Assembly: GCA_947624435.1 (NCBI GenBank)
Contig: CANQKE010000028.1
Span: forward strand, 1 to 34,336
Reading direction: 5' to 3'
DNA from: an uncultured Ruminiclostridium sp.
Lineage (GTDB): Bacteria > Bacillota > Clostridia > Oscillospirales > Ruminococcaceae
Length of the DNA stretch: 34,336 nucleotides
The position numbers and the translations under genes are program-made. Every line of letters begins with the position of its first letter. Position 1 is the first letter of the stretch. The notes under the pieces were generated by a model. The model ran no database searches. It saw only the letters and a list, made by a program, of their open reading frames with translations, and had not been told where the DNA came from. Below, piece by piece: positions 774 to 8,371 of the stretch.

Positions 774-1181
774 TTATTTCATTCCTGCGGTGGAAATACG
801 GTTTATTGCGCGTTTCAGCTTATATTCTGCAATGTCCAGCTTGCGCTGATCGTCCTTAAAGCGATTAAGGTTTTCCTCCGCCGTTTCACGGGCGCGCTCG
901 GCTCTGGCGACGTCTATCTCCTCCGCCCACTCAAAGGACTGAGCGAGGATAGTGGTCTGTTCCTCCGTGACCTCCACCGTACCGGAGGATACCGCGCCTA
1001 TTTTCTCCGCGCCGTCGACGGTCTTTATCCTGGTCTGCCCTATTCCCAAAGCCGCGACATACGGCTCATGGTGAGCGAGTATACCCTTATCTCCGACAGT
1101 GGTACGAACGATGACGCTTGTGACCTCTCCGTCGTACAGCACCCGTTCGGGCGTAATAATTTTAAGTTTGAATGGTGTCAT
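774..1181 (-). CDS. atpC: F1Fo ATP synthase epsilon subunit
   Basis: 135 residues, normal for the family. The N-terminal beta-sandwich starts FKLKIITPERVLYDGEVTSVIVRTTVG and contains the typical GDKGILAHHEPYVAALGIG loop; the C-terminal part from about residue 85 is the two-helix domain (ARAERARETAEENLNRF). Epsilon sits on the central stalk with gamma and restrains ATP hydrolysis by movement of its C-terminal helices. It is the last gene of the operon, 4 bp after atpD; the SD-like GAGG lies within the last atpD codons, so translation is probably coupled. A strong hairpin follows its stop. Confidence 0.96.
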   Translation of the reverse strand: MTPFKLKIITPERVLYDGEVTSVIVRTTVGDKGILAHHEPYVAALGIGQTRIKTVDGAEKIGAVSSGTVEVTEEQTTILAQSFEWAEEIDVARAERARETAEENLNRFKDDQRKLDIAEYKLKRAINRISTAGMK

Positions 1182-1185
1182 ACGG

Positions 1186-3458
<2,273 letters not shown>

Positions 3459-3523
3459 GCTTTATAAAGCCCCCAAAACAGAGGCCTCTCCTTTCGCCGC
3501 GCTATACGAAAACTCGTATATGC

Positions 3524-3646
3524 TTAAATATCGTCACGCTCAATATAAGACGTTTTCCGAAACAGCAGCTCCAGCACCACCAGCGCCATAGTCAGCACCG
3601 AGATGCTCACCGCCACTATGCTCAATGTCAAAGCCGCTTTTTTCAT
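3524..3646 (-). CDS. Small single-pass membrane protein inside the atp operon (40 residues)
   Basis: I do not recognise this gene. It encodes 40 residues beginning MKKAALTLSIVAVSISVLTM, a single hydrophobic segment (about residues 5-29), then a short charged tail (FRKTSYIERDDI) likely facing the cytoplasm or cell exterior. Support for translation is a textbook SD, AAAGGAG, 7 nt before the ATG, in an operon where nearly every gene is tightly packed. It begins 19 bp after the 77-residue gene and ends 65 bp before atpG. Canonical atp operons have nothing between atpA and atpG. It could be a small accessory subunit, an assembly factor, or a leader controlling atpG; function is unknown. Confidence 0.65.
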   Translation of the reverse strand: MKKAALTLSIVAVSISVLTMALVVLELLFRKTSYIERDDI

Positions 3647-3665
3647 GTTTTTTCTCCTTTGTGAA

Positions 3666-3899
3666 TTATTGCCGCTCTGTGGAGCCGTAGCAGGTCTTTC
3701 CCGCCCCGGCGGCTTTCAGGATATTTTCAAGCTCCGCCTTAGCGCTTTCTTCATTCGGATAAAAACCGATAATGTACTCGATAGTGCGCGTTCCGGCGAT
3801 AACGGTCCATTTCTTATCCTGCCCTCCGCCTATATTCTTCTGAACGGAAAAGCGTTCTGCATCCAGCAGCTGCTTTTTGTCGTATGACATTACCCACAT
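3666..3899 (-). CDS. Small protein of unknown function between atpA and atpG (77 residues)
   Basis: I do not recognise this protein. It is soluble by sequence, with a likely strand-turn-strand (KKWTVIAGTRTIEYIIGFY) followed by a helix (NEESAKAELENILKAAG), a pattern that would suit a small alpha/beta fold. The start is supported by AAGGAG, which overlaps the atpA stop codon and sits 5 nt before the ATG, so translation is coupled to atpA; an internal ATG three codons in is less well placed. Position in the operon suggests a role linked to ATP synthase assembly or regulation, but that is inference from context only. Confidence 0.75.
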   Translation of the reverse strand: MWVMSYDKKQLLDAERFSVQKNIGGGQDKKWTVIAGTRTIEYIIGFYPNEESAKAELENILKAAGAGKTCYGSTERQ

Positions 3900-3908
3900 A
3901 GCAGCTCC

Positions 3909-5417
3909 TTAACCCACGAAGCTCTTGGAAAAGTTCGCTAAAACTTCCTTAAGCTTTTCTTCGTTTTCGGGGGTAAGTACCTTATCCTTGCGTATACTCT
4001 CGGTAATTTCGGGATACTTTTCATCTATATGTTTATAAAGCTCTTTTTCAAACTCCGCGACGTCACTCAGCTTTATATCCTTAAGATAGTTGTTGATGAC
4101 CGCATATATGATTATTATCTGATTTTCCACCGCTACCGGGGAATTCTGCGGCTGTTTAAGCACCTCGACTATCCTTTCGCCCTTGGCAAGACGCTCCTTG
4201 GTGTCCTTGTCAAGGTCGGAGCCGAACTGTGAGAACGCCTGTAACTCTCTGAACTGGGAGTAATCCAGCTTAAGAGTACCGGCTACCTTCTTCATCGCCT
4301 TTATCTGTGCGTTACCGCCGACACGCGATACCGATATACCGGGGTTTACCGCAGGGCGCACGCCGGAATGGAACAGCTCCGTTTCAAGGAATATCTGTCC
4401 GTCGGTGATGGAGATGACGTTCGTCGGTATGTACGCCGACACGTCGCCCGCCTGCGTTTCGATTATCGGCAAAGCGGTGAGCGAACCTCCGCCGTACTCG
4501 GCGTTAAGGTTAGCCGCGCGCTCAAGCAGTCTTGAATGAAGATAGAACACGTCGCCGGGGTATGCCTCACGTCCCGGCGGACGCTTGAGCAGCAAAGAGA
4601 GTGCACGGTAAGCTACCGCGTGCTTGGAAAGATCGTCGTATACCACCAGCACGTCCTTGCCCTGCTCCATAAAATATTCGCCCATAGCGCAGCCGGAATA
4701 CGGCGCAATATACTGTAACGGCGCAAGCTCGCTCGCCGCGGCGGAAACCACGACGGTATAATCCATCGCGCCCTCTGATCTTAGCTGCTCCACCACGTTC
4801 GCCACGGTGGAAGCCTTCTGCCCTATTGCGACATATATACAGATAACGTCTGTCTTTTTCTGATTGATTATAGTATCTACCGCTATCGCGGTCTTACCGG
4901 TCTGACGGTCGCCGATTATCAGCTCACGCTGTCCTCTGCCTATCGGTATCATGGAGTCTATCGCCTTGATACCCGTCTGTAAAGGCACGTTTACCGGCTC
5001 TCTGGTGATTATACCGGGCGCTATCTTTTCTATCGGGCGGGTCTCTTTCGAGAGTATCGGGCCGCGTCCGTCTATTGGCTGACCCAGCGCGTTTACCACT
5101 CTTCCGAGCAGCTCGTCGCCTACCGGCACCGCTACGACCGTACCGGTACGCTTTACCACGTCGCCCTCTTTGATGTCGTCATCCTCGCCCAGCATTACCG
5201 CACCGACAAAATCCTGTTCCAGGTTCATCGCCATGCAGCGCACGCCGTTTTCAAATTCCAGCAGCTCGTTGAGCATACACTTTTCCAAACCGTGTATGCG
5301 TACTATGCCGTCGCCCACCGTCACCACCGTGCCGGTATCTTCAAGCTTTAGCTGAGAGCTGAAATCCTTTATACGGGATCTTATTATCCCGGTTATTTCA
5401 TCGGGTCTTAAATCCAC
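3909..5417 (-). CDS. atpA: F1Fo ATP synthase alpha subunit
   Basis: 502 residues, full length. The N-terminal beta barrel contains [17 protein letters not shown], the nucleotide site has Walker [12 protein letters not shown] near residue 169, and the conserved [19 protein letters not shown] segment is present. Alpha holds the non-catalytic nucleotide sites of F1. The start is GTG, chosen because AAGGAAGGG lies 6 nt upstream and the protein then begins [16 protein letters not shown] as expected. It lies 31 bp downstream of atpH and is directly followed by a small gene whose SD overlaps the atpA stop. Confidence 0.98.
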
Positions 5418-5448: not shown

Positions 5449-5994
5449 CTACTCGATAAGTCCCGCTATCTCGCCGCGAAGCTGCTCCAGCCGCGTCTTT
5501 ACGCTGCCGTCTATGCGAGTGCCGCCGCAACTTATCATAACGCCGCCTATTATAGACGGATCGGTCTTGAGCCGCAGAGTAACTTTCTTGCCGGTGACCT
5601 GCTCCATCTTGAGCCGTATCTTTTCCGCCGTTTCCTCCGAAAGCGGCTGAGCCGATACCACGTCCACGTCGGCAAGCCCGTTGTACTCGTTGCAAAGGCC
5701 GTTAAAATACGCGGTTATGCTGCCAAGCCTGTCCGCTCTGCCGTTTTCGGTAAGCACCAACAGGAAATTCAGCAGATATTCGTGTATATGTCCTTTGAAA
5801 GCGTCGTTTATCACCGCGCATTTATCCGCTTTGCTGACAGTCGGCGCTTTGAGCAGCTTTACCAGCTCCGGCTCAGAATCGAATATCCCGCAAACGCTTT
5901 TCAGCTGCGCAAGTATTTCCGTCAGCGACTGCTTTTGCTCATCGACTATAAGACCGAATAAAGCGTCGCCGTATACCTTATCCACCGACGCCAT
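5449..5994 (-). CDS. atpH: F1Fo ATP synthase delta subunit
   Basis: 181 residues with the start used here. The N-terminal helical domain ([19 protein letters not shown]) and the C-terminal signature ([33 protein letters not shown], divided here by position 140-170) are those of the delta/OSCP family, which links the b stalk to the top of F1. A longer reading starting at 6021 is possible but the ATG at 5994 has AAGGAG 7 nt upstream, encoded in the last codons of atpF, and lies 1 bp after the atpF stop, so translation is coupled. Confidence 0.95.
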
Positions 5995-5995
5995 A

Positions 5996-6544
5996 TCAGT
6001 TCTCCTTTCCGATGCGCTCAAGCTCGGCTGAGATTATGCGTTCATTATCCTCCGCACTGATCTCCTTTTCTGCGACCTTAGACGCCGCCGCTATGACCAT
6101 ATCGGCTATCTCGTCCTTGATCTCGTTGACCGCGCGTTTCTTCTCCCGCTCGATGCTCTCCTCGGCGCGCTGCTTTATATTAGCAGCCTCGGCGTTAGCT
6201 CCGGCGATTATCTCGTCGCCGCGCTGCTGCGCCCGTTTGGTAGCGTCGGACAGGATACGTCCCGCTTCTTCTTTAGACTGCTCTAACCGCTGTTCGTACT
6301 CGGTACGCGCCGCCTCGGCGTCTTCACGCGCCTTTTCGGCGTCGTCCATGTCCTTTTTGACCGCCTCGGCACGCTTATCCAGTATGGAACATACCGGCTT
6401 ATGCAGAAAGAAGAAGTATATAAGTATAATTATTCCGGTATTGATAAGGGTGAAAATTATGGTGTCCGCGTTTATATCCACCAGTGAAAAGGTGGGCTGT
6501 TCGGCAGCCTCGGACGCCGCCCTTACCAAAGAAAGAAGGTCCAT
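5996..6544 (-). CDS. atpF: F1Fo ATP synthase b subunit
   Basis: 182 residues. One membrane segment (about 29-47, IIFTLINTGIIILIYFFFL) is followed by a long charged coiled coil rich in Ala, Glu, Lys and Arg to the C-terminus, the peripheral stalk of the enzyme. About 28 residues precede the membrane segment, somewhat longer than in many b subunits. The SD AAAGGGGAG precedes the ATG. It overlaps neither neighbour; the atpH start is 1 bp downstream. Confidence 0.95.
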   Translation of the reverse strand: MDLLSLVRAASEAAEQPTFSLVDINADTIIFTLINTGIIILIYFFFLHKPVCSILDKRAEAVKKDMDDAEKAREDAEAARTEYEQRLEQSKEEAGRILSDATKRAQQRGDEIIAGANAEAANIKQRAEESIEREKKRAVNEIKDEIADMVIAAASKVAEKEISAEDNERIISAELERIGKEN

Positions 6545-6574
6545 ACTTCTCTCCCCTTTCTGATGATTTGCTTA

Positions 6575-6856
<282 letters not shown>

Positions 6857-6924
6857 CTAAAGTCCGTAAAAAGGACTTGATCTGCTTTAACTTTATTTTA
6901 TCCCTTTTAGGGGATATTACCGTG

Positions 6925-7653
6925 TCAGTCACACTCCGCCATTGAAACATACGCCATGGTAAGCGTGCAGAATATATACGCCTGTATGAACGATGAGAAC
7001 AGGTCAAAGTACAGCGAGAGTATAGCCGGTACGCCTATCGACGCAAGTCCGCCCGCCACCTGTCCTAACGCGAAGTAGACGAGTCCGCCTACTACCGAGC
7101 CGGCAAGGATATTCGCAAAGTGACGCAGCGACTGCGATACCGGGTTTGCTATCTCACCGATTATATTGAACGGCAGCATGAACGGCATAGGCTCGATAAA
7201 TCCTTTGAAGAAGCCCTTTACGCCGCCGGTCTTTACCTTATTGCGCTGAGTGAGGATAAAGGTTATCACGCCCCACGTCGCCACCACCGAAAGGTCGGAG
7301 GTAGGCGCGCGCAGTCCCAGAAGTCCCATAAGGCTGGACACCAGCGACATACAAAACAGCGCGCCGATATAGACGGTGTACTTTTTGTACTTTACGCCCA
7401 TCGTATCATTTACCATGTTGCGGAAAAATCCCACTATGTATTCCGCCGCCATCTGCCTGCGGGAGGTAGGCTTCAGCTTAAGGTTGCGCCCGAGTATGAA
7501 GAATACCACCGCCAGTATAATTATTACCAGCCATTGGACTACGATGCTTTCGCTTATCGTAACGTCCAGACCGCCTATGCTGAACTTTATGGATTGCAGC
7601 GGGCCCTTTACCGAAAACTCCGCCGCGTTTTTCAAAAGCTCCAGCGTTTGCAT
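6925..7653 (-). CDS. atpB: F1Fo ATP synthase a subunit
   Basis: 242 residues with five to six membrane segments. The essential helix contains NPVSQSLRHFANILAGSVVGG with the invariant Arg (about residue 177), and the last helices carry FDLFSSFIQAYIFCTLTMAYV. Subunit a forms the ion half-channels against the c-ring. A TTG start at 7662 is possible, but it lies only 1-2 nt from the SD AAGGAAAGG; the ATG at 7653 is spaced properly and gives MQTLELLKN. It follows the atpI stop by 5 bp, and 86 bp separate it from atpE. Confidence 0.96.
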   Translation of the reverse strand: MQTLELLKNAAEFSVKGPLQSIKFSIGGLDVTISESIVVQWLVIIILAVVFFILGRNLKLKPTSRRQMAAEYIVGFFRNMVNDTMGVKYKKYTVYIGALFCMSLVSSLMGLLGLRAPTSDLSVVATWGVITFILTQRNKVKTGGVKGFFKGFIEPMPFMLPFNIIGEIANPVSQSLRHFANILAGSVVGGLVYFALGQVAGGLASIGVPAILSLYFDLFSSFIQAYIFCTLTMAYVSMAECD

Positions 7654-7658
7654 ATCCG

Positions 7659-8084
7659 TCAATCCTTTCCTTGTTTATCTTTATCAAAAAACATAGCGTT
7701 CACAGTGTACCCTATTTTAGGAACAAACAACGGTATCACCGCCGTGAACGGTTCTATCAGCTTGAAATACATCATTACTCCGAGTATAAGAAACATCGCA
7801 ATATACCGTAAGGCATACGTTCCGTTCATGGAAAGCCGCGCAGTCTTTTCGTTCATGTGCGAAATGTTCTGACAGCTTACCGCAAGCGTAAAAAAGCTCA
7901 ACGCAGATATCACCGTACCCACTGCCGCTCCGCTGAACAATCTCCAGTTGAAACCGGATACCATGCAGACGATTGCGGATACAATAGATATCAAAAGGAA
8001 AATTATGATATAATACGGCAAAAGCGCCTTCAGCTCCTTTGCCGCTACGTCGTATCTTTTTATCAGCTTTCCCATAACTATCAT
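7659..8084 (-). CDS. atpI: ATP synthase subunit I (AtpI)
   Basis: 141 residues with four hydrophobic helices and a charged N-terminus (KLIKRYDVAAKELKALLPYY), as in the ATP synthase I family found at the head of atp operons. In Acetobacterium woodii AtpI is needed to assemble the Na+-driven c-ring; a similar chaperone role is expected here. The start ATG overlaps the atpZ stop (ATGA), and atpB begins 5 bp after its stop, so all three are translated together. Confidence 0.85.
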   Translation of the reverse strand: MIVMGKLIKRYDVAAKELKALLPYYIIIFLLISIVSAIVCMVSGFNWRLFSGAAVGTVISALSFFTLAVSCQNISHMNEKTARLSMNGTYALRYIAMFLILGVMMYFKLIEPFTAVIPLFVPKIGYTVNAMFFDKDKQGKD

Positions 8085-8371
8085 GACTGTCCGTCGTCGT
8101 AATAATCATCGTCCCGCCGTCTGTGTACCGAGATCTTTTCCTTATCGTCTTTGGCAAACATCTTTACCACCTTGGCAAGATAGCTTGCCGTGCCGGATAT
8201 CATAGTGAGGATACCGAGAAGCACGCACACTATGATAAGCTGCTGCGGCCAGCCCAGCGCGTTTATCAGTGCGCTGCCGCCCCAGATAAACACCAGCAGC
8301 GGCACTATCACCAAAAAACCTATCTGACCGACCACCGCGTACACTTTAAGCGGATTGTCCTTTTTATCCAT
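8081..8371 (-). CDS. atpZ: AtpZ-like ATP synthase accessory membrane protein
   Basis: 96 residues with two membrane helices (about 12-33 and 41-61) and a basic/acidic C-terminal tail ending in RRRDDDYYDDGQS. This fits the AtpZ/'ATPase gene 1' family that accompanies atpI. In other bacteria AtpZ and AtpI form a membrane complex that helps c-ring assembly or ion supply. A longer version beginning at 8398 has no SD; the ATG at 8371 forms a TAATG overlap with the preceding gene, which suits coupled translation. Confidence 0.7.
   Translation of the reverse strand: MDKKDNPLKVYAVVGQIGFLVIVPLLVFIWGGSALINALGWPQQLIIVCVLLGILTMISGTASYLAKVVKMFAKDDKEKISVHRRRDDDYYDDGQS

Follow-up and report, generated by a model that had tools for sequence, protein, structure and literature searches.

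A conserved small protein gene between atpA and atpG in a Ruminococcaceae genus: a candidate accessory part of the ATP synthase

The atp operon of an uncultured Ruminiclostridium sp. carries, between atpA and atpG, a gene for an undescribed 40-residue protein, here called orfB, and sequence evidence makes this protein a promising candidate for a new auxiliary component of the ATP synthase. The protein is probably (about 0.55) a lineage-specific accessory or assembly protein of F1Fo-ATP synthase, associated with Fo. This role appears the most likely one because the position of the gene is conserved, its origin is apparently single, selection acts on it at the protein level and a membrane helix is predicted. 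The bacterial enzyme is commonly regarded as having eight invariant subunits, AtpI and AtpZ counting as additions. If the proposed role is true, bacteria too add small subunits to Fo, and the gene for this one lies in the F1 half of the operon.

Organisation of the atp operon and its atpA–atpG interval

The window, that is, the whole stretch of DNA analysed, comprises 34,336 nucleotides (positions 1 to 34,336 of contig CANQKE010000028.1) from a 2.35-Mb assembly of 62 contigs (GCA_947624435.1). The nearest named loci belong to metagenome-assembled genomes deposited under the labels 'Ruminiclostridium sp.', 'Eubacterium sp.', Oscillospiraceae or Clostridia. One sequence deposited as 'Bacteroides sp.' (JAMPHV010000005.1, L063) coincides with the locus of a member of the genus (G008), and its organism label is probably wrong. 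On the minus strand of the window, the atp genes follow the order AtpZ-like, atpI, atpB, atpE, atpF, atpH, atpA, orfA, orfB, atpG, atpD, atpC. The atpA stop and the atpG start lie 450 nt apart (3459-3908), and the two extra small genes that the sequence-only reading had placed there, a 77-residue orfA and the 40-residue orfB, lie in this gap, whose coordinates are exactly those of that reading, with spacers of 9 nt (atpA-orfA), 19 nt (orfA-orfB) and 65 nt (orfB-atpG). The same reading had described their Shine–Dalgarno (SD) sequences as strong and well spaced, which the two motifs listed here bear out. The features are as follows.

774..1181, minus strand: atpC (F1 epsilon), ORF named by eye and from operon order
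1186..2580, minus strand: atpD (F1 beta), ORF named by eye; the same order was found in relatives with atpD as query
2604..3458, minus strand: atpG (F1 gamma), PF00231 / TIGR01146
3524..3646, minus strand: orfB, 40-aa predicted single-helix membrane protein, MKKAALTLSIVAVSISVLTMALVVLELLFRKTSYIERDDI, from the ORF, relatives and a model
3527..3559, minus strand: orfB C-terminal tail, residues 30-40, with K/R31 and Y34, from column counts of 75 sequences
3560..3637, minus strand: orfB hydrophobic segment, residues 4-29, with the small residues of the family at 4, 5, 9, 12 and 16, from hydropathy and column counts
3654..3660, minus strand: SD AAAGGAG of orfB, 7 nt before the ATG, read from the sequence
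3666..3899, minus strand: orfA, 77-aa soluble protein with a small beta sheet and a C-terminal helix, an optional neighbour, from the ORF, relatives and a model
3905..3910, minus strand: SD AAGGAG of orfA, 5 nt before the ATG and overlapping the atpA stop codon, read from the sequence
3909..5417, minus strand: atpA (F1 alpha), GTG start, TIGR00962 (NCBIfam)
5449..8371, minus strand: upstream part with atpH, atpF, atpE, atpB, atpI and the AtpZ-like gene; Pfam for AtpI and AtpE, with atpH, atpF and atpB named by eye from order and sequence
7659-8084, minus strand: atpI of the window, Pfam AtpI (PF03899) above cut-off

The AtpZ-like protein of this operon matches Pfam AtpZ at E 0.032, below the cut-off. 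On the minus strand, the scan for promoter-like and terminator-like sites reported none between atpA and atpG. An RNA element was considered and rejected, Rfam at gathering scores having returned zero RNA elements across the window. As a separate observation, atpE (6575-6838) encodes a c subunit with E31 in helix 1 and E64-T65 and Y69 in helix 2, an arrangement similar to the Na+ type with two carboxylates that the available text of PMC3692424 reports from Fusobacterium.

Distribution, selection and translation signals of the two small genes

Among genomes of the same genus, orfB occupies the atpA–atpG junction in 64 of the 67 whose junction is readable (55/57 in a first set and 9/10 in a second; rows L059 and L067, the same loci as G346 and G350, are excluded). 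The census covered 71 genomes, with the junction unreadable in four: G016, G071 and G356 gave no atpA at the cut-off, and atpG of G063 lies at a contig edge. Junction genes were called from ORF length (33-46) and hydropathy (>1.6), then by eye. A profile census of the 71 genomes agrees with these calls but was built from those ORFs: its convincing matches number 64 and correspond one for one to the junction genes, and two other, weak matches (E 1.2e-4 and 9.9e-4) lie elsewhere, in frames of 111 and 218 aa. The window's own genome holds a single match. The gene is also present at the junction in one genome of a sister genus (G301). In profile searches of 295 genomes of the order, 391 of the class and 148 of the family, every convincing match lay in the genus or in G301; the genomes searched are a sample, and divergent relatives can escape a profile of <40 positions. 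Weaker matches occurred in 18 genomes (frames of 51-853 aa), at a second site in G301 (138 aa) and in frames of 247, 281 and 193 aa, and none of these 22 loci contains an atpA or atpG match. Within the genomes covered, orfB is thus encoded with the enzyme and conserved with it, with no convincing copy elsewhere.

Outside the orfB clade, the atpA–atpG gap measures 12-58 bp in 62 of the 63 loci read. This range holds for 50 of 51 named outside loci, which share no 60-mer with the loci of the genus (their distinctness being judged by 60-mers alone). In other genera of the family, all 12 typical atp operons have a gap of 12-54 bp; in five ATPase loci of divergent type it is -20 to 8. The exception is a more distant rumen MAG (L115), where a TM2-domain gene (PF05154, E 5.5e-14) sits at the same junction. 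Judged by these comparisons, orfB is clade-defining for the atpA–atpG junction. Three genomes of the genus (G003, G064 and G349) have an atp operon with a junction that lacks orfB, so the gene is not essential to the ATP synthase. These three form one clade with support 1.0, and on a tree of the operon's own proteins (66 taxa, covering 59/67 of the genus genomes) the presence of orfB takes two changes by parsimony. The genus as a clade apart from G301 has a support of only 0.56, which does not affect this count. The history of the gene is best read, on this tree, as one gain and one loss, a pattern in which its effect is open to test by comparison between carriers and non-carriers.

The encoded proteins are mostly 38-41 residues long, with 34 residues in one genome and 65, through an N-terminal extension, in another (G354). 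The structure model consists of one helix, residues 2-37 (mean pLDDT 85.3, pTM 0.46), with a less certain tail. The best 19-residue hydropathy is 2.56 in the window and 2.22-2.87 in 57 orfB rows, a range that is partly the product of selection since candidates were pre-filtered at 1.6. The protein therefore has the form of a single-pass membrane micropeptide, with one predicted hydrophobic helix of membrane-spanning length. Column counts were taken from 75 sequences, namely the window and 74 of 85 database homologues (the 11 omitted are mostly longer forms). In this set, Y34 is invariant (75/75), K/R occupies positions 31 and 3 in 74/75 each, S occupies position 9 in 70/75, and positions 4, 9, 12 and 16 carry a small residue in every sequence; the tail often has F/I35 and an acid at 38. 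A wider genus alignment (n=36) leaves only M1 and Y34 invariant. The tail differs in one group that bears orfA, where it ends KEN..KKYY, and the K31 part of the signature is therefore not universal; these variants of the genus are absent from the 75-sequence set. Neither conservation (p 0.64) nor small residues (p 0.24) clustered significantly on one helical face by permutation. The 85 listed homologues carry 'hypothetical protein' as their only name, none with a Pfam domain, which illustrates how annotation overlooks 40-residue proteins.

Substitutions in orfB fall mostly on synonymous sites: in 27 pooled pairs, which are hand-picked and not independent, pS is 0.507 and pN 0.092, and dN/dS ranges from 0 to 0.27 in the 22 pairs that allowed its computation, synonymous sites being too diverged to correct in 4/27. 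By this comparison, the codons are under purifying selection, i.e. selected as a protein. For orfA, 13 hand-picked pairs give a pooled pS of 0.506 and pN of 0.142. The test proposed with the sequence-only reading, conservation in relatives with substitutions favouring synonymous sites, thus came out in favour of both frames, orfB being found at 64/67 junctions and orfA at 17/67. Chance ORFs are ruled out for both by junction position, selection and SDs.

The surroundings of orfB vary considerably. Its distance from atpG ranges from 12 to 742 nt across 55 loci, and in three genomes a gene for a 237-aa protein lies in between; since spacing is this variable and a whole gene may intervene, orfB is not a fixed cis element. 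The distance from atpA ranges from about 10 to 628 nt, with alternative starts in one locus (L128) from 0. Constant spacing would be the expectation for a leader or coupling element, and its lack argues for an action of orfB in trans as a protein, as far as sequence can indicate. Translation signals are widespread: an SD core (AGGA, GGAG, GAGG, AAGG or GGGG) lies 4-18 nt before orfB in 52/55 loci, compared with 130/670 ATGs inside atpA. In the nearest relative (G031, L025), orfB and the downstream sequence are identical to the window, and extra DNA lies between orfA and orfB; there the order is AAAGGAG, a perfect hairpin of 8 bp, 9 nt and the orfB ATG. G009 (L015) has GAGGAGG, a perfect 9-bp hairpin, 10 nt and the ATG. 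Folding was as good in 5 (G031) and 3 (G009) of 200 shuffles, for regions chosen after the hairpins were seen. Such a hairpin would return the SD-ATG distance to about 10 nt, forming a structure-bridged ribosome-binding site, and because it spans the extra SD-ATG stretch in both genomes, translation of orfB seems to be protected or maintained.

The neighbouring orfA is, by its substitution pattern, a real gene under purifying selection, but a patchy one, missing from 50/67 junctions. Its confident model shows the small beta sheet and C-terminal helix listed above. Pfam and NCBIfam returned nothing for orfA, and PDB sequence profiles at E up to 10 gave 0 matches for either small protein. A PHROGs search of 54 family members yielded scattered, weak matches (best E 0.0073). 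Foldseek with the model found no PDB match at E 0.001, only a middling list headed by PH-like domains, and one match among viral models, an uncharacterised phage protein (E 8.5e-4). Family members also lie next to ABC-transporter genes in G067 and G073 (L247:163-399 and L248:6790-7017), one of these loci also following a GntR-type regulator named by eye. Because of this association, the orfA family is not tied to ATP synthase, and orfA is more plausibly an occasional passenger or a modulator.

Proposed role of orfB and competing explanations

According to the favoured explanation, orfB would be inserted in the membrane as a single-pass helix, with its small residues (4, 5, 9, 12 and 16) packing against an Fo helix, on the side of subunit a or b and not of the rotor. 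The tail, which is basic and contains a tyrosine (K/R31, Y34), would lie at the membrane surface, where it may help to assemble, stabilise or tune the holoenzyme. In some species, orfA, as an optional soluble small-domain protein from the same operon, may modulate the enzyme. The proposal made from sequence alone, that both proteins are accessory or regulatory subunits, is accordingly well supported as a hypothesis for orfB, given its fixed locus, selection, predicted membrane helix and variable spacing, and weak for orfA, which most junctions lack and whose relatives occur near ABC-transporter genes. It is a tentative possibility that orfB goes further and acts as a stoichiometric single-helix Fo subunit, previously unseen, gained a single time in the ancestor of one gut lineage and retained from then on, which would make it a bacterial counterpart of the supernumerary small Fo subunits found in mitochondria.

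The atp operons of this genus contain other inserted genes. The purC gene (SAICAR synthetase) lies between atpH and atpA in G003 (L116), G064 (L237), G349 (L239) and G021 (L228), identified by PF01259 on the G003 protein only and by resemblance in the other three; three of these four genomes are the species without orfB. At the same site, G020 (L230) encodes a TIR-like protein (PF13676, E 1.7e-4, below cut-off) and G080 (L232) a protein resembling it. A 555-aa lipoprotein-like protein is also among the insertions, and two more proteins occur at the junction together with orfB, one of 237 aa after it and one of 173-194 aa before it (L051-L053; L027, L123, L201), the latter with a membrane anchor and an Ala/Lys-rich stretch. 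Since the operons hold such unrelated genes, operon membership alone is a weak argument. With purC in four genomes and a TIR-like protein in G020 as unrelated passengers, and with no sequence relationship to eight further Atp proteins (hhalign <=1.9%, run without a positive control), orfB could be a real membrane micropeptide serving something else, such as membrane stress, another transporter or protein insertion, with the atp operon being only a growth-linked expression site. This is rather unlikely, however, as the distribution of these passengers is patchy, while orfB keeps to a single junction across the genus and one sister-genus genome and is lost in only one clade of those read, and every convincing match of the 71-genome census lies at that junction, with only the two weak ones elsewhere.

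The location of orfB also invites an explanation in cis. The products of atpA and atpG are needed at 3:1, and a short ORF with good SDs between the two genes could set this expression ratio through its translation, the peptide being a by-product. Amino-acid-level selection, the tyrosine at position 34 in 75/75 sequences and an orfB-atpG spacing that ranges over 12-742 nt and admits whole genes make this very improbable. Somewhat less remote, but still improbable, is a two-gene accessory module in which a soluble orfA would partner orfB on the F1 side: the two genes occur together at the junction in 17 genomes and orfA is under purifying selection, but 50 of 67 junctions lack orfA while 64 of 67 have orfB, and orfA-family members stand beside ABC-transporter genes in G067 and G073. 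The Fo-associated accessory or assembly role of orfB thus stays the preferred one.

Comparison with known families and systems

Family searches place orfB in no described group. Pfam at E up to 10 returned 0 families, and NCBIfam a single row at chance level (E 0.17; 10.8 bits, where the cut-off is 700). A profile of the 75 sequences compared by hhalign with Atp Z, I, B, E, F, H, G and C reached a probability of at most 1.9%, in a comparison that had no positive control; on this basis orfB was rejected as a fragment or duplicate of another of these Atp proteins. For AtpB, E, F, G, H and C, the probability was <=1.2%, and homology to these core subunits was not found. Identification as AtpI (PF03899) was rejected on the 0 Pfam families, an hhalign probability of 0.3% and the window's own AtpI, and identification as AtpZ (PF09527) on the 0 Pfam families and 1.9% against the AtpZ-like proteins of the operons. 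A limited literature search, with most subscription papers outside its scope, found no recognised description of an extra gene between atpA and atpG.

Small hydrophobic proteins encoded as extras in atp operons are nevertheless a known kind, represented in the available text of PMC4453477 by AtpI, AtpZ and Nonomuraea OrfX. AtpZ (PF09527, ATPase_gene1), which that text describes as present in only some lineages, encoded before atpI and linked to Mg2+ acquisition, is like orfB a lineage-limited extra small hydrophobic protein of the operon, but its gene precedes atpI whereas orfB lies within the F1 genes. OrfX, in the same partial source, is a predicted hydrophobic extra atp protein encoded between atpI and the a-subunit gene; compared by description only, it shares this character with orfB and differs in operon position. 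Cyanobacterial Atp-theta (atpT), according to the accessible portion of PMC9241938, is a small amphipathic protein with its own regulated promoter that blocks ATP hydrolysis by F1Fo. Again by description only, both proteins are small and lineage-limited, Atp-theta acting and orfB proposed to act on F1Fo, but Atp-theta is amphipathic and has a promoter of its own, whereas orfB is a predicted hydrophobic helix encoded in the atp operon. AtpI resembles orfB as a small hydrophobic protein encoded in the atp operon, and differs in that its gene stands at the operon start, not inside the F1 genes. Small single-helix subunits such as CydX and KdpF, of about 30-40 residues, are encoded in the operon of a large complex. 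They belong to different complexes, and orfB is likened to them by description in its size, predicted single helix and location in the operon of a complex; its proposed role would parallel that of these small single-helix subunits of other membrane complexes.
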